From contig NZ_JAOTIK010000001.1 in assembly GCF_030116705.1 (NCBI RefSeq), forward strand, positions 1,879,001-1,943,000: 64,000 nt of DNA, in the 5' to 3' direction. Below the pieces are notes generated by a model, which ran no database searches, was not told the origin of the DNA, and saw nothing but the letters and a program-made list of their open reading frames with translations. The DNA is from Streptomyces sp. ML-6. Its GTDB lineage: Bacteria > Actinomycetota > Actinomycetes > Streptomycetales > Streptomycetaceae. Every line of letters begins with the position of its first letter. The stretch's first letter is position 1. The position numbers and the translations under genes are program-made. Below are positions 2,802-25,200 of the stretch, one piece after another.

Positions 2802-2994
2802 GTGCGCCACTGTGTCACGCCGCGCCTCCCCCGGTCAGCCCGAATTCTCCGCCCCGCGCACGGACCGCGCACGGGCCGCGAGGGGCCGTGCGCCGGACGC
2901 GTGGGGAGGTCGGCGCACATGACGGCGCGGGGCCCGCAGGGGTCGTGGGCCCGGTCGGCGGCGCGCGCCGGAGCCGCTGCGGCAGGATGGAACC

Positions 2995-19042: not shown

Positions 19043-20014
19043 ATGCCCCGGCCCGATCCCTTCCCCCTGACGTACTTCAGCGACTTCGTCATCACCGGCA
19101 CGGTGGGCGGCGCCGACGCCACCTCCACGCCCGACGAGGTCACGGCGCTGCTCGGCGACGACTTCGTGGAGAGCTTCGAGCGGGGGCAGCGGCTGCGCGG
19201 TTACGACCTCGCCGAGTTCGCCTGGCAACGGCTCTCGCCCGAGGAGCCCTGGGACGGCCTCTACGCCATGGTGCAGGCCCACCGGCTCGAAGTGCCCCTG
19301 CTGATGGACGACTTGGACCGGGAGCTGCGGCGGGCGGGCTTCCCCGTCACCGAGGTGGCGCCCGACGGGCTCGGCTGCCGTCGTTTCGTGCGGGAGGACA
19401 GCCGGGTCGGTCTGCTCGTCGACGAGGACACCGGGGCCGTGCTCAAGATCTCGACGCCGACGTGGTTCGGGACCGGCCCCCGGTACGCGACGCCCGCCTG
19501 GTCGCGGGAGGCCGGGAGGGACTGGGTGGAGCACCTGGTGGGGCTGGACCCCGACGGGCGGGAGCGGTGGGCCGCGCACCGCGCGCCCGGGGCGGCGGAG
19601 GAACGCGCCCGCTGGTGGTGGTTCCTGCTGGACTCCTGCCTGCGGCGGACCCCCAAGGGGCCGGACCGGACGGGGAGCCCGTGGGCGGGGCTGGCGCTCT
19701 GGCTGGTCGGGAAGTGCCGTACGGCCGGGGTGCTGGACCGGGCGGAGGCGGCGCTGGAGGTCGCCGGACGGGAGCTGCTGCCGCCGGACGAGGCCGTCCG
19801 GATGTGTCTCGACGCCATGCCGGTGTCCCGGGCCGGGGTGGCGACCAGGCACACCACCGCGTACACCCGGGAACACCTCGTGGCGGTCAACCGGTCCCGG
19901 CAGGCCAAGGCCCTGGCCCTGGCCGCCGGCGCCCAGCTGCGCAGGGGCGTGCGGGAGCCGGCGCTGCGGGCCGAGGTGGCGGCGTGGCTGGAGCTCCGCC
20001 CGGTACTGATGTAG
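19043..20014 (+). CDS. Hypothetical protein of 323 aa
   Basis: I do not recognise this family. The protein has an N-terminal stretch like immunity/YwqJ-linked proteins (YFSDFVITGTVGGADATSTPDEVTALLGDDF), which may form an alpha/beta half. An acidic middle follows (EVPLLMDDLDRELRRAGFPVTEV, then LLVDEDTGAVLKISTPTWFG), and a helical, Arg/Ala-rich C-terminus (AKALALAAGAQLRRGVREPALRAEVAAWLELRP). There is no signal peptide or membrane helix, so it is probably cytoplasmic. ATG 19043 is preceded by GCGGAG. It stands 85 bp after the MarR gene on the same strand. The 80 bp after its stop contain GC-rich direct repeats that may terminate the convergent transcripts. Confidence 0.75.
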   Translation: MPRPDPFPLTYFSDFVITGTVGGADATSTPDEVTALLGDDFVESFERGQRLRGYDLAEFAWQRLSPEEPWDGLYAMVQAHRLEVPLLMDDLDRELRRAGFPVTEVAPDGLGCRRFVREDSRVGLLVDEDTGAVLKISTPTWFGTGPRYATPAWSREAGRDWVEHLVGLDPDGRERWAAHRAPGAAEERARWWWFLLDSCLRRTPKGPDRTGSPWAGLALWLVGKCRTAGVLDRAEAALEVAGRELLPPDEAVRMCLDAMPVSRAGVATRHTTAYTREHLVAVNRSRQAKALALAAGAQLRRGVREPALRAEVAAWLELRPVLM

Positions 20015-20094: not shown

Positions 20095-21018
20095 CTACTC
20101 CCTCTCCTGCTCCTCCACCTGCTTCTCCGCCTCGGCCAGCAGTTCCGTGAGGCGCAGGCCGAACCGTACGTCGCACGGGTCCGGCTCCCCCGTGCGCACC
20201 GATTCGATCAGCGCGTCCACCGCCGCCCGGAAGGAGCCGACCGCGTCGCCCCAGCGCGGCAGCGTGACGACTCCCCGCTCGCCCCGGAGCTCGATGACGG
20301 TGCCCACCGCGGCCGTCGGGGCGCCCAGGGCGAGCGTCACCGTGCTGGACGCTCCGGAGGTGTGACGGAGGATCAGGTGGACGGCGTCGGACGGGCCGCG
20401 CGCCGCGGTCAGCCGGGTCACGTCCCCCAGCACCGGGATCAGGACCGACAGGACGTGCGGGCCGACGTCCCACAGGCCGCCCTTCTCGCGACGCCAGGGC
20501 GATGCGGCGTACTCGCTGGTCGAGCCCGGTGCGAACAGCGACCCGATCCACTCGGCACGGGCGGTGAACCACCCGTCCAGGGCGGCCTGTTCACCGATCC
20601 AGACGGAGGTGTCGGCCGCGAACCTCAAGGTGCAGAAGACGACGGACGCGACCCCCGTCCGTTCGACGGCCCGGACGACCTCGCCGGCCCCCGCGACGGT
20701 GGTGGCGACCGGCTTGTCCAGCAGCAGGTGGCGTCCGGTGGCCGCGGCGCGGGCGGCGAGCGGGGCCTGGACGTCCGGCGGCACGGCGAACGCGATGGCG
20801 TCGCTGGTGGCGAAGAGCTCGTCGATGCCCGCGTCGCCGGTGTACGCCGTGGTGCCGTGCGCGGCGGCCAGCGCGTCCGCGGCCCCGGCGTTGCGGCCCC
20901 ACACACCGCTGAGCACGGCGCCGGGGTGGGCGGCGAGGGCGGGGGCCTGGGTGTTGCGGGCCCAGGGCCCCGTACCGACGAGGCCGATGCGCAAGGGGGT
21001 CGGGGGAAGTGTCGTCAT
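20095..21018 (-). CDS. Gfo/Idh/MocA-family NAD(P)-dependent oxidoreductase
   Basis: The 307-residue protein starts with a Rossmann motif, RIGLVGTGPWARNTQAPALAAH, and continues to DAIAFAVPPDVQAPLAARAA and the signature GRHLLLDKPVATT, in which DKP carries the conserved lysine of the EKP motif. A C-terminal beta-sheet domain of the usual length follows. Such enzymes oxidise or epimerise sugars, inositols or amino sugars; the substrate is not evident and no sugar cluster adjoins. It starts at ATG 21018 and is divergent from the TROVE-like gene at 21287. Confidence 0.9.
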   Translation of the reverse strand: MTTLPPTPLRIGLVGTGPWARNTQAPALAAHPGAVLSGVWGRNAGAADALAAAHGTTAYTGDAGIDELFATSDAIAFAVPPDVQAPLAARAAATGRHLLLDKPVATTVAGAGEVVRAVERTGVASVVFCTLRFAADTSVWIGEQAALDGWFTARAEWIGSLFAPGSTSEYAASPWRREKGGLWDVGPHVLSVLIPVLGDVTRLTAARGPSDAVHLILRHTSGASSTVTLALGAPTAAVGTVIELRGERGVVTLPRWGDAVGSFRAAVDALIESVRTGEPDPCDVRFGLRLTELLAEAEKQVEEQERE

Positions 21019-21118: not shown

Positions 21119-21268
21119 TTGGCGGAGGGTGAGGTTCATGGCTACGTTTGCGGGGCCGGCCGCGGGACTCCGGCGCGACTTCCGGGACTTGCCTCTGAAG
21201 CAGTGATTTCGCTGTTCGCGCCCCCATTCCCCGGCCGGCATCGCACCGCCCCCGCCCCGGGCGGTGCG
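21119..21268 (+). promoter_or_regulatory. Candidate promoter and leader hairpin before the TROVE-like gene
   Basis: TTGGCG at 21119-21124 and TACGTT at 21143-21148 are separated by 18 bp and could be -35/-10 boxes. The resulting leader would hold a perfect 10-bp stem, CGCACCGCCC (21242-21251) with its complement at 21259-21268. That stem ends 18 bases before the start codon. This leader, or a transcript in it, is where I would look for an RNA partner of the encoded protein. Confidence 0.4.
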
Positions 21269-21286
21269 CGACACCACGGGGGAACC

Positions 21287-22852
21287 ATGTCCACCAGCAC
21301 CGGCACCGACGCCGGGCTCGTCGCCGCCGAGGACGTGCTGCTCTTCGTCAACGCGGCGATCACCGCCACCGGCCAGCGCGAGTTCCGCTCGACCGCGTAC
21401 CAGCAGCAGCTCTCGCTGGACTTCCTGCACGAGTACGTACGGGTCAACTACCGCCGGCTCTACGCCTGCGCGCTCGCCCTCGACATCAACGACCACAACG
21501 CGGCGCGCATCGTCCACGGCCTGCTGGAGCACGCCGGGGACGCGACGCCCGGGGAGAAGCGCACCGAGGGCCGGCTGATCGCCGCCCGGCTGGCGAAACT
21601 GCCGCCGCAGCGCGTGTACCGGCTGTTCCGGGCGCTGCGCGCGGCCGGGGTGAACAACCGGCGCACCCGCGCGATCATGCGCGACTGGCTGGCCGCCCGG
21701 CCCGACCTGGCGCACGACGCGGTGAAGTACCGCTCCGGCCTGAAGACCGCGGCCCGCCACGCCCACCTCCCGCTCGACGGGACCGGGGAGCAGAAGAGGG
21801 CCGAGGAGCCGAAGGAGGCCGGAGCGCCGAAGAGGACCGGGGAGCCGGAGGGGGCCGCCGAGGTCGGGGACTTCCTGTTCCGGCCGGGGCTGCGCACCCA
21901 CTACCGGCACCAGCTGCTCGACGCCTGGCGGCGCGCCCACTACGAGCAGCGGGCCGTCGAGGAACTGCCGTTCACCGTCGCCGAGGGCTTCGCCGCCCGG
22001 CACGGGATGAAGCGCGAGGCGTTCCTGGAGCGGGCCGCGCCGCGGATGACCCGGCTGGAGCGGCTGCGGACCCAGCGGCAGCGCACCGACGCGATCGGCC
22101 TGCTGCCCGCCGACGTGGACCTGACCGTGATGCCGCTGACCCGGCTCGCCCTGTACGTCCTGTCGCTCCACTTCGACGAGCGCCGGATCCGCCGCGCGGA
22201 CCTGACCCGTGCGCTGCGTTCGGCGGCCCGGCGCGCGGCCGGTCCGCACGCCGGGAGCTGGGGCCGGGTGGCCGCCGTGCTGGACGACAGCTACTCCTCG
22301 TACGGCTCGGGCGAGAAGCGACGCCGTCCGCTCGCCGTGGCGCTGGCCTGCCACCACCTGCTGGAGGCGCTGGCCGCGCCGGGCGGGTACACCCCGCTGT
22401 GGACCTCGGGCCGCACCGATGCGCTGCTGGTCGGGCCCTGGGGGGCGACCCCGCTCGGCACCCGGGTGCTGGACGCCCTGGAGCTCGGCCCCGACCGGCT
22501 GATCATCGTGTCGGACGGCTGGGACAACGCCCCGCCCGGACTGGCCGGCGAGGTGCTCAGGGTGTGGCGGACCCGGCTCGACCCGGACCGGCGCACCGAG
22601 GTGGTGCACGTGAACCCCGTGTACGACGCGGACGGTTTCGACGTGCGGCGCCTGGCGCCGAGCGTGCCGACGGCGGGCATCCGGGACGCGGAGGACCTGC
22701 CGACGCTGGTGGAGATCGCGCAGTTCGCCGAGGGGCGCACGGGCCCTGCGGCCCTGTACGCCTATCTGGACCGGCAGGTCGCGCGTTTCGTGGCCGAGGA
22801 CCGGACGGCCGGGGAGCCGACGGCCGGGGACCGGTCGGGAGCCGCATCGTGA
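21287..22852 (+). CDS. TROVE/Ro60-like protein: helical repeat domain plus von Willebrand A domain
   Basis: The 521-residue protein has a helical N-terminal half (LFVNAAITATGQREFRSTAYQQQ, NYRRLYACALALDIN, PQRVYRLFRALRAAG). A charged Glu/Lys/Gly linker (about residues 165-190) and a second helical block follow, then a C-terminal alpha/beta region. There VLDDSYSSYGSGEKRRR gives the D-x-S-x-S metal-binding motif (residues about 333-337), TPLG supplies a threonine near 388, and IIVSDGWDN supplies the aspartate near 410. That is a vWA MIDAS site. Helical repeats plus vWA is the Ro60/TROVE layout, which binds non-coding RNA (Y RNA). The assignment is by pattern and not confirmed by alignment. It starts at ATG 21287 after GGGGGAA. 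The following gene starts 16 bp after its stop. Confidence 0.72.
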   Translation: MSTSTGTDAGLVAAEDVLLFVNAAITATGQREFRSTAYQQQLSLDFLHEYVRVNYRRLYACALALDINDHNAARIVHGLLEHAGDATPGEKRTEGRLIAARLAKLPPQRVYRLFRALRAAGVNNRRTRAIMRDWLAARPDLAHDAVKYRSGLKTAARHAHLPLDGTGEQKRAEEPKEAGAPKRTGEPEGAAEVGDFLFRPGLRTHYRHQLLDAWRRAHYEQRAVEELPFTVAEGFAARHGMKREAFLERAAPRMTRLERLRTQRQRTDAIGLLPADVDLTVMPLTRLALYVLSLHFDERRIRRADLTRALRSAARRAAGPHAGSWGRVAAVLDDSYSSYGSGEKRRRPLAVALACHHLLEALAAPGGYTPLWTSGRTDALLVGPWGATPLGTRVLDALELGPDRLIIVSDGWDNAPPGLAGEVLRVWRTRLDPDRRTEVVHVNPVYDADGFDVRRLAPSVPTAGIRDAEDLPTLVEIAQFAEGRTGPAALYAYLDRQVARFVAEDRTAGEPTAGDRSGAAS

Positions 22853-22873
22853 AGACGGGAGCCGCATCGTGAA
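22836..22873 (+). repeat. 18-bp direct repeat making a stop in one copy and a start in the other
   Basis: CGGGAGCCGCATCGTGAA occurs at 22836-22853 and again at 22856-22873. In the first copy TGA (22850-22852) ends the TROVE-like gene; in the second GTG (22869-22871) starts the next gene. The GGGAG in each copy can act as ribosome site. It looks like a small tandem duplication at the gene junction. Confidence 0.85.
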
Positions 22874-24008
22874 CAGGCTCGAACTGACCGGGCTCACCCC
22901 CCGCCCCGCCCAGGTGTGGGGCGGCATCCGGCTGGTGCCACTGGTGCGCGAACAGCCGGTCGAGGGGCTCCGGCTGCACGAGGAGCTCTACCTGGACGCC
23001 CTGCCCGGCGTCGTGAGCCTCGGGCCGCGCGAGCACTACGTCTCGGTCATTCCGCACGGCTTCGTCGCCGACTGGTCCGGCGAGGGCGGGCAGAGCGTCG
23101 CGTACGGCACGCAGCTCGGCGCCCCGGCGGGCTCCCCGGGCGGGGGCCGGCCGCCCCGGACCGCCCGGCTCCAGCGCCACCGCCACCACCGCATGGCCAA
23201 GCGGCAGCCCGGCGACCGGCTGCGTTTCCTGCCGCTGCACCTCGCGCTGGAGGGGTATCTCGCCCTGCACTTCGGCGGACCCTCGACCGCCTGGGAGGAG
23301 TGGTCGCGGCAGGCGCTGCGCGACGGCCTCTCGCCGCGCGCCGAGGACGCGTACCTGGGGTGGACGGTGCAGGGGCTCGACGACGCGCTGCGGGCCTTCG
23401 AGATCCATCCCGGCCAGTGCGGCGTGATGGTGTACGCGGCCGACGTGCTCGCCGCCGCGTTCGTGGTGCCGCACCCGGACGACTACCGGCTGCTGCATCC
23501 CTCGCTGCTCCAGGACCTGTACGGCGAGCTGATCCACCAGTACGCGATGTACGGCGGGCCGGTGGCGGAGTTCACGGCGCGGATCTCCGACGGCGCGCGG
23601 CTGCGGACGCTCGCCGAGCTGCGGTCGGCGGCGCGGCGCCAGGAGCTGGAGTGGGCGCGGGCGCACGACACCCTGTTCGCGGGCGAGCTGCTGGACGGCT
23701 CGTACGCCTTCGACCAGGTGTACCGGATGGGTTCGTTCACGCTGTGGCGGTTCCTGCCCCCGTTCCGGCCGGGCGGGGAGGGGCAGCACATCGGCGAGAC
23801 GATCACCGACCACAAGGGGCGGGTCGCGTACCTGAAGACGTTCCGGCTGTCCGAGGCCCAGATCCGGCGGGGGCACCTGCTGCACCGGCTCGCCGACGCG
23901 GACTGGCGGCTCCCGCGGGCGGCCGCGGCGCTGAACACCACCGAGGCGGAAGTGCGGCGCCGCATCCGCGCGGCCGGCTTCGAGTCGCTGCTGAAGGTCC
24001 GCTCGTAG
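22869..24008 (+). CDS. ARPP-2-like protein, partner of the TROVE-like gene
   Basis: The 379-residue protein begins MNRLELTGLTPRPAQVWGG and continues with IRLVPLVREQPVEGLRLHEELY, a beta-rich N-terminal domain. It then has a bulky central domain (RLRFLPLHLALEGYLALHFGGPS, HPGQCGVMVYAADVLAAAFVVP, LYGELIHQYAMYGG). A C-terminal helix-turn-helix-like segment reads ADWRLPRAAAALNTTEAEVRRRIRAAGF. The opening fits what I remember as the ARPP-2 domain, a family found beside Ro60/TROVE-like and ADP-ribosylglycohydrolase genes in proposed RNA-repair or conflict loci; I could not verify this. GTG 22869 lies 16 bp after the TROVE-like stop, so the two form one transcription unit. The terminal helix-turn-helix is reminiscent of Fis-type helices. 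Confidence 0.68.
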   Translation: MNRLELTGLTPRPAQVWGGIRLVPLVREQPVEGLRLHEELYLDALPGVVSLGPREHYVSVIPHGFVADWSGEGGQSVAYGTQLGAPAGSPGGGRPPRTARLQRHRHHRMAKRQPGDRLRFLPLHLALEGYLALHFGGPSTAWEEWSRQALRDGLSPRAEDAYLGWTVQGLDDALRAFEIHPGQCGVMVYAADVLAAAFVVPHPDDYRLLHPSLLQDLYGELIHQYAMYGGPVAEFTARISDGARLRTLAELRSAARRQELEWARAHDTLFAGELLDGSYAFDQVYRMGSFTLWRFLPPFRPGGEGQHIGETITDHKGRVAYLKTFRLSEAQIRRGHLLHRLADADWRLPRAAAALNTTEAEVRRRIRAAGFESLLKVRS

Positions 24009-24156: not shown

Positions 24157-25200
24157 ATGGCTTCCGTGACGTTCAAGGCCGAGTACATCTGGATCGACGG
24201 CACCGAGCCGACCGCCAAGCTCCGTTCCAAGACGAAGATCATGACCGGGAGTCCCTCGCAGGACGTGGACCGGCTGCCGACCTGGGGCTTCGACGGTTCG
24301 AGCACCAACCAGGCCGAGGGCCACGCCTCGGACCGGGTGTTGAAGCCGGTCTTCGTCTGCCCGGACCCGATCCGCGGCGGCGACGACATCCTCGTGCTGT
24401 GCGAGGTCTTCGACATCGACATGACGCCGCACGCCTCCAACACCCGTGCCGCGCTGCGTCCGGTGGCCGAGCGGTTCGCCGGTCAGGAGCCGGTCTTCGG
24501 CATCGAGCAGGAGTACACCTTCTTCGACGGCCACCGGCCGCTCGGCTTCCCCGAGGGCGGCTTCCCGGCCGCGCAGGGCGGCTACTACTGCGGGGTCGGC
24601 GCCGACGAGATCTTCGGCCGCGAGATCGTCGAGAAGCACCTCGACCACTGCCTGCGGGCGGGCCTCGGCATCTGTGGCATCAACGCCGAGGTCATGCCCG
24701 GCCAGTGGGAGTTCCAGGTCGGTCCGCTGTCCCCGCTGGAGGTCTCCGACCAGCTGTGGGTCGCCCGTTGGCTGCTGTACCGCACCGCCGAGGAGTTCGA
24801 CGTCTCCGCGACCCTCGACCCGAAGCCGGTCAAGGGCGACTGGAACGGGGCGGGCGCGCACACCAACTTCTCCACCAGGGCGATGCGCGAGGGCTACGAC
24901 GCGATCATCACCGCGTGCGAGTCGCTGGGCGAGGGCTCGAAGCCGATGGACCACGTCAAGAACTACGGCGCGGGCATCGACGACCGGCTGACCGGCCTGC
25001 ACGAGACCGCCCCGTGGAACGAGTACAGCTACGGCGTCTCCGACCGCGGCGCCTCGGTCCGCATCCCCTGGCAGGTCGAGCAGGACCGCAAGGGCTACAT
25101 CGAGGACCGTCGGCCGAACGCCAACGTCGACCCGTACGTCGTCACGCGGCTGATCGTCGACACCTGCTGCTCCGCGCTGGAGAAGGCCGGCCAGGTCTGA
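24157..25200 (+). CDS. glnII: Glutamine synthetase type II (GlnII)
   Basis: The 347-residue protein is a eukaryote-like type II glutamine synthetase, also found in Streptomyces, Frankia and rhizobia. It shows VTFKAEYIWIDG, LPTWGFDGSSTNQAEGHASD, FGIEQEYTFFDG (metal ligands), GGYYCGVGADE, AEVMPGQWEFQVGP, and the ATP-site tract GDWNGAGAHTNFST. The length is typical. Unlike GlnA it has no adenylylation tyrosine motif. It starts at ATG 24157. The upstream GlnR operator and a downstream terminator define a single-gene unit. GlnII is usually heat-labile and expressed under nitrogen limitation or during differentiation. Confidence 0.97.
   Translation: MASVTFKAEYIWIDGTEPTAKLRSKTKIMTGSPSQDVDRLPTWGFDGSSTNQAEGHASDRVLKPVFVCPDPIRGGDDILVLCEVFDIDMTPHASNTRAALRPVAERFAGQEPVFGIEQEYTFFDGHRPLGFPEGGFPAAQGGYYCGVGADEIFGREIVEKHLDHCLRAGLGICGINAEVMPGQWEFQVGPLSPLEVSDQLWVARWLLYRTAEEFDVSATLDPKPVKGDWNGAGAHTNFSTRAMREGYDAIITACESLGEGSKPMDHVKNYGAGIDDRLTGLHETAPWNEYSYGVSDRGASVRIPWQVEQDRKGYIEDRRPNANVDPYVVTRLIVDTCCSALEKAGQV

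Follow-up and report, generated by a model that had tools for sequence, protein, structure and literature searches.

A predicted Ro60-fold protein, a Y-like RNA and an ARPP-2 protein form a recurrent three-part unit in Streptomyces and on Nostoc plasmids

A stretch of 64,000 nucleotides (nt) from the genome of Streptomyces sp. ML-6 (contig NZ_JAOTIK010000001.1, positions 1,879,001 to 1,943,000), hereafter the window, carries a three-part unit composed of a small noncoding RNA similar to the Y RNAs, a gene for a protein with a predicted Ro60 fold (protein 1) and a gene for a protein of the ARPP-2 family (protein 2). The fold of the RNA is conserved, the three parts recur together and in the same order, and protein 1 has the Ro60 fold by model. 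The unit is probably a divergent bacterial Ro60-Y RNA particle for RNA surveillance, with ARPP-2 as a dedicated third gene. Its parts, in the coordinates of the window, are:

21155-21239, plus strand: Y-RNA-like noncoding RNA of 85 nt, a conserved element found by aligning upstream regions
21287-22852, plus strand: gene of protein 1, ATG start, TGA stop, 521 amino acids; helical N-terminal part and C-terminal vWA domain, Ro60 fold by model
22869-24008, plus strand: gene of protein 2, GTG start, TAG stop, 379 amino acids; ARPP-2 domain (Pfam PF22549) at residues 4-288

Ro60 ribonucleoproteins (RNPs) are found in animals, but few bacteria have them, some 5% of sequenced bacterial genomes (PMC4726728). 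The AlphaFold model of protein 1 (predicted local distance difference test, pLDDT, 81.5; predicted template modelling score, pTM, 0.81) places a helical-repeat part before a C-terminal vWA domain, arranged as in Ro60. Searching with this model in Foldseek returns Ro60 for all of the top eight Protein Data Bank (PDB) matches, over nearly the whole chain. The match spans both halves of the protein (407 residues; structure comparison by Foldseek/VIA), at an identity to Ro60/Rsr of 11-16% in the Foldseek alignments. A Pfam scan of protein 1 gave no TROVE match, no vWA match and none of any kind at E<=1; the TROVE cut-off is passed by two other proteins encoded in the same genome. Sequence searching of the PDB gave no match, and a profile of protein 1 gave just two weak matches there, to IWS1 (E 0.74-0.75). 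As judged from the model, protein 1 is Ro60-like by fold and not by sequence family. The preliminary description of this DNA had called it TROVE/Ro60-like, of which the Ro60 likeness holds at the level of the fold, while TROVE is not detectable by Pfam.

The metal ion-dependent adhesion site (MIDAS) of vWA domains follows the pattern DxSxS...T...D (PMC11277228). In protein 1 its residues are read where the preliminary description had placed them, and they are invariant in alignments A1 (11 rows) and A9 (6 rows). A further motif lies in the N-terminal half:

22283-22516, plus strand: MIDAS residues D333, S335, S337, T388 and D410, vWA domain of protein 1
21686-21733, plus strand: WLAARPDLAHDAVKYR, residues 134-149 of protein 1, a motif also present in one canonical actinobacterial Rsr

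The pattern W...RP.{4,9}A[VIL]K[YF]R occurs in 63 of the 70 rows of alignment A5 and in the Rsr of locus L169. Relatives from Nostoc do not retain the W and RP of the motif; K147-Y148-R149 and H158 are invariant in A9, two rows of which come from Nostoc. Like Ro60/Rsr proteins such as the Rsr of Deinococcus radiodurans (PDB 2nvo), protein 1 shows this fold along the whole chain, a MIDAS and a length of about 520 amino acids, and its gene adjoins a Y-like RNA. It differs from them in its low identity, in giving no Pfam TROVE match and in having ARPP-2 rather than rtcB as partner.

The RNA upstream of protein 1 closes its own two ends, and the surrounding leader contains the following elements:

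21155-21162/21232-21239, plus strand: end helix of 8 base pairs (bp), 5' and 3' ends paired
21163, plus strand: bulged C, nucleotide 9 (C9), a single unpaired base on the 5' strand
21164-21167/21228-21231, plus strand: helix of 4 pairs directly after the bulged C
21143-21148, plus strand: -10 box TACGTT, its last base 7 nt before the first base of the RNA
21242-21251 with 21259-21268, plus strand: perfect 10-bp stem, 18 nt before the ATG of protein 1

Beyond the 4-bp helix come an internal loop and two further helices, one of 7 bp and a short one farther in. The folding energy of the window RNA is 5.27 standard deviations better than that of shuffles (z -5.27), and a covariance model search finds one match genome-wide (E 6.8e-20). 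Among 61 RNAs, 98.6% of the cells are paired and both sides have changed in 8 of 23 pairs, a result equalled by 0 of 500 shuffles; when the structure is slid, pairing drops to 39-61%. With 30 diverse RNAs, including those of Nostoc, 10 of 23 pairs are changed on both sides (reached by 3 of 500 shuffles), and the paired cells amount to 99.7% in helix 1, 93.3% in helix 2 and 86.7% in helix 3. On the basis of this covariation, the leader RNA folds on itself. Another family of the same class (f89) provided 24 RNAs that were found using the covariance model and were not part of its building set; their outer stem and bulge are the same, followed by three pairs, and 6 of their pairs are changed on both sides. 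Their inner part folds differently, so that helix 3 is the least certain part of the RNA. A C occupies the bulge in 58 of the 61 RNAs, in 22 of the 24 from f89 and in 3 of 3 from Nostoc; the remaining 5 of 88 have U there.

Ro60 binds chiefly at the bulged C9, which bacterial Y RNAs retain (PMC4030889); in vertebrates the site consists of a 7-bp helix together with one bulged C, which faces a bulge of three nucleotides (PMC4726728). To judge by sequence, the layout of the leader RNA is closely similar to this site, not identical. As in Y RNAs, the ends are paired with a single bulged C, the molecule is small and a Ro-type gene lies beside it. It differs from YrlA (RF02553), whose model gives no match to the leader at E<=10; the Rfam scan at that threshold yielded a single chance microRNA match, and a scan of the whole window at the gathering threshold yielded none. 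A Y-like RNA in the leader had been anticipated by the preliminary description, and the conserved RNA lies just upstream of the 10-bp stem noted there. The stem exists where it was noted but is not a conserved RNA, as a stem of at least 7 bp is present in just 4 of the 26 spacers examined (locus L052 has an 8-bp version). It was therefore ruled out as the Y RNA, though it might serve this lineage as a terminator for the small RNA.

The sequence around the -10 box reads GGCTACGTTT, without an extended TG. TAnnnT stands directly before the RNA in 100 of 100 distinct upstream regions, and the extended form TGnTAnnnT in 62. Also conserved in these regions, about 43 nt before the RNA start and about 30 nt before the -10 box, is GAA(T/A) followed by a GGTGGCG-like stretch, with the A at -43 present in 83%; this may be an activator site and not a -35 box.

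Protein 2 begins with ARPP-2, as had been recognized from the sequence (PF22549, E 6.3e-122, 406 bits against a cut-off of 27). It is weakly similar to ARPP-1 (Pfam PF20208, E 0.011), which has been placed in ADP-ribose-linked host systems predicted to be antiviral (PMC9503650). The partners named for ARPP-1 in the accessible part of that source are ARG, HIRAN, WYL and a deacetylase, with no Ro60-type protein among them. A cysteine and a glutamine that never vary are the mark of ARPP-1. When 11 ARPP-2 and 4 ARPP-1 rows are aligned with MAFFT, both families share the Q of a later [GDS]-Q-x-G motif, and the C..Q.G stretch of ARPP-1 is missing from ARPP-2, so that the chemistry of ARPP-1 is not to be presumed for it. 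The helix-turn-helix (HTH) end proposed earlier for protein 2 fared less well:

23865-23993, plus strand: tentative HTH-like tail of protein 2, HTH profile matches below cut-off

None of the four scanned C-terminal pieces of ARPP-2 proteins passes the cut-off of any HTH family: the window protein gives an HTH_AsnC-type match (E 0.26), the relative at L015 an HTH_8 (Fis) match (E 0.007), that at L016 a match to a third HTH family (E 0.024), and that at L014 none. The tail is HTH-like at best. A single-sequence AlphaFold model of protein 2 was unusable (pLDDT 34.7).

A scan with one genome per species found 254 loci with a relative of protein 1, and the best 80 of these were compared. All 80 have the RNA ahead of protein 1, with a profile trained on 26 loci, some of them from genomes also among the 80, and an ARPP-2 match by tblastn lies downstream in 80 of 80, that of L157 being partial with a late start. 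The partner gene is conserved, as the neighbourhood comparison suggested earlier has shown. Among 33 fetched regions, 27 encode a near-full-length protein 1, and 26 of these also encode protein 2; at L077 protein 1 is split and protein 2 was not detected. Within 246 Streptomyces genomes, protein 1 or pieces of it occur in 39, the RNA in 37 and both in 36. The three genomes with protein pieces and no RNA call (G677, G708 and G761) hold decayed remnants, which in two cases include what is left of the RNA, and in G810 the RNA persists next to fragments of the genes. G763 has an intact RNA, and neither gene was found beside it by tblastn at E<=1e-4; a short stretch after this RNA resembles the middle of protein 2 in the DNA as read by eye. 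Decaying copies of the unit in Streptomyces are seen at L072-L075 and at L214 (the G763 locus), those of L072-L074 at the site between the oxidoreductase and glnII genes described below. Streptomyces griseus (L121) is among the carriers. The unit appears to be old in Streptomyces, mostly at one site, and frequently lost.

Outside the genus, relatives of protein 1 or of the vWA protein of L018 occur in 49 of 180 genomes of family f89, and the RNA is present in all of the best 20 loci and in 6 further loci with protein 1 and ARPP-2. Relatives of protein 1 were found in 9 of 296 genomes of the class and 2 of 296 of the phylum. ARPP-2 exceeds its cut-off in 3 of 396 phylum genomes; in one genome of the 396, G369, a fragment of ARPP-2 stands alone, with neither protein 1 nor the RNA. 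In the wider phylum the unit is rare.

The same three parts lie on three Nostoc plasmids, two of which were typed as conjugative. Their relatives of protein 1 are 44-46% identical over 94-96%, each with ARPP-2 downstream (E 6e-113 to 2e-115) and the RNA upstream (model R1, E 1.1e-9 to 1.8e-9). The end helix, ACUGUUUG/CGAACAGU in Nostoc and GCCGGCCG/CGGCCGGC in the window, keeps all eight pairs, of which 4 are changed on both sides, 1 on one side and 3 not at all; the bulged C and the subsequent GGGA/UCCC are retained. On two of the plasmids (L229 and L231), xisH and xisI stand between the genes of protein 1 and ARPP-2. As the unit is also carried by these cyanobacterial plasmids, some bacteria appear to carry a Ro-RNA particle that is missed by standard searches.

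The genome of ML-6 also offers a comparison with canonical Ro genes. Of 7 TROVE loci, 5 have YrlA matches next to the gene, all below the Rfam gathering score; one of these is a TROVE gene of this genome (L002), with two stretches upstream (E 1.2e-8 and 6.2e-6), the others are L169, L171, L172 and L174. No YrlA match was found at the genome's other TROVE gene (L001) or at L170.

L002:2556-2655 and 2823-2887, minus strand: YrlA-like, tRNA-mimic candidates in the genome of the window, below the gathering cut-off

With YrlA-like RNA beside a TROVE gene and a leader RNA that is not YrlA, the genome holds two different Ro-type arrangements. In the Salmonella rsr-yrlBA-rtcBA RNA repair operon (PMC7790460), a Ro protein and Y RNA also stand together; by contrast, in the unit described here no rtcB is beside them, the RNA precedes the protein gene and ARPP-2 is present instead. 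Some f89 genomes contain a second, related pair in which a vWA protein (DTSGSM in L018) precedes ARPP-1 (L018/L079, L215-L218 and L221), and some, such as G985, carry both pair types. The order vWA to ARPP is the same and the vWA protein is homologous to protein 1 (hhalign 96.8%), with ARPP-1 in place of ARPP-2. The RNA model has no match in these six loci, nor in the incomplete L219, L220 and L222, and no conserved RNA was seen by eye in nine aligned upstream regions.

The two genes of the window are separated by 16 bp on the plus strand, in agreement with the tight linkage first noted, and are flanked by:

20095-21018, minus strand: GFO/IDH/MocA oxidoreductase gene, divergent, one flank of the gene pair
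24157-25200, plus strand: glutamine synthetase gene (glnII), the other flank

Both flanking genes are kept in 58 of the 80 loci, and neither in 13. At the junction (22836-22873), an 18-nt direct repeat with a period of 20 spans the stop of protein 1 and the GTG of protein 2, which suggests that the genes formerly overlapped as GTGA. An open reading frame of 323 amino acids at 19043-20014 has no Pfam match at E<=1 and was not seen in the 33 compared regions. The rtcB gene is not adjacent, as had been observed; it lies at C1:3249431, about 1.3 Mb from the window (C1:1879001-1943000). PADLOC and NCBIfam searches gave no match for either protein and, with rtcB elsewhere, the RNA-repair or conflict system once envisaged finds no direct support. 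Nor does the idea of a reduced form of an rtcB/ADP-ribosyl operon, since the RNA, protein 1 and ARPP-2 recur as a set in actinobacterial loci and on the three Nostoc plasmids.

In the proposed model the small RNA has a transcription start site of its own, with a promoter suggested by conservation, and folds on itself. Its end helix with the bulged C9 would dock onto the outer face of protein 1, whose helical repeats presumably form a ring closed by the vWA domain as in Ro60, and protein 1 would capture RNAs that are structured or damaged. By analogy with the Y RNA of Deinococcus Rsr, the bound RNA would gate or tether protein 1. We infer that the RNA is a separate transcript, that binding occurs via the C9 helix and that the particle serves RNA surveillance. 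ARPP-2 would work together with the particle; as a guess at its role, it may recognize or enzymatically process ribose/ADP-ribose-type ends, or it may be a DNA- or RNA-binding regulator by means of its tail; this is the weakest step of the model, and each of the two roles is somewhat unlikely. As the sequences place protein 1 outside Pfam TROVE and set the RNA apart from YrlA, the unit is treated as a separate variant working like a Ro RNP.

It could be argued that the RNA is instead a cis-acting 5' leader, bound by protein 1 or 2 to control the operon, without any separate particle. The RNA lies directly upstream of protein 1 in the same direction, protein 2 may have an HTH tail, and no terminator-like hairpin is conserved after the RNA, given the scarcity of stems in the spacers. 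However, the distance from the RNA to the estimated start codons in the 80 loci varies from -1 to 225 nt (median 23), the fold closes the RNA's own two ends, the end helix with its bulged C resembles the Ro60 site, and G763 keeps an intact RNA with neither gene beside it, although that gene loss may be recent. A cis-acting leader is, in our judgement, unlikely. An anti-phage or other conflict system, with protein 1 as the sensor of RNA damage and ARPP-2 as its effector, would be in keeping with the predicted antiviral setting of ARPP-1 (PMC9503650), with the patchy occurrence and decayed copies in Streptomyces and with carriage on the Nostoc plasmids, two of the three typed as conjugative; this seems quite unlikely, given the PADLOC result and the 58 loci that share the oxidoreductase-glnII site of the window, which is not a variable island. 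The viral sequences also speak against it: the phage collection gave one match to protein 1 (27% over 30% of the protein), and none of 66 pattern matches in viral contigs was confirmed as a relative. A 462-kb uncultured phage genome has a 27% match to residues 6-159 (L232:4001-4498), where the RNA model gives no match at E<=10.

That protein 1 is a chaperone-like vWA scaffold unrelated to RNA, with the RNA a chance neighbour, is highly improbable, as the Ro60 match covers both halves of the protein and the RNA tracks its gene in loci of two phyla. The Ro60-Y RNA particle can also be put in a broader form, as a second kind of Ro-Y RNP in bacteria that Pfam and Rfam fail to reveal. It would retain the Ro-binding helix with its C9 bulge, lack the YrlA tRNA mimic, coexist in one cell with the canonical TROVE/YrlA set, have crossed from one phylum to another (residing on plasmids in Nostoc) and be coupled to ARPP-2, which would sense damaged RNA ends or act on them as an enzyme. 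This fuller statement is somewhat less likely than not.

Among the papers listed on Ro60, Y RNA, Rsr or TROVE in Streptomyces, actinobacteria or cyanobacteria, and on RNA repair and vWA, no description of the unit was found; a prior description in subscription papers is possible. Neither 'ARPP-2', alone or with 'TROVE', nor the origin of its name was found, and a 2013 survey of Streptomyces noncoding RNAs (PMC3765725) makes no mention of Y RNA, Ro60, glnII, SCO2210 or TROVE. The presence of a Ro60 fold at about 12% identity, accompanied by a Y-like RNA of its own, suggests that sequence searches underestimate how widespread Ro-type particles are. The bulged-C helix is suggested as their ancient common denominator, the tRNA-like module being optional, and the action of a Ro-binding helix alone becomes testable. 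ARPP-2 gains a concrete partner, and two Ro systems are found within one genetically workable genus, Streptomyces.

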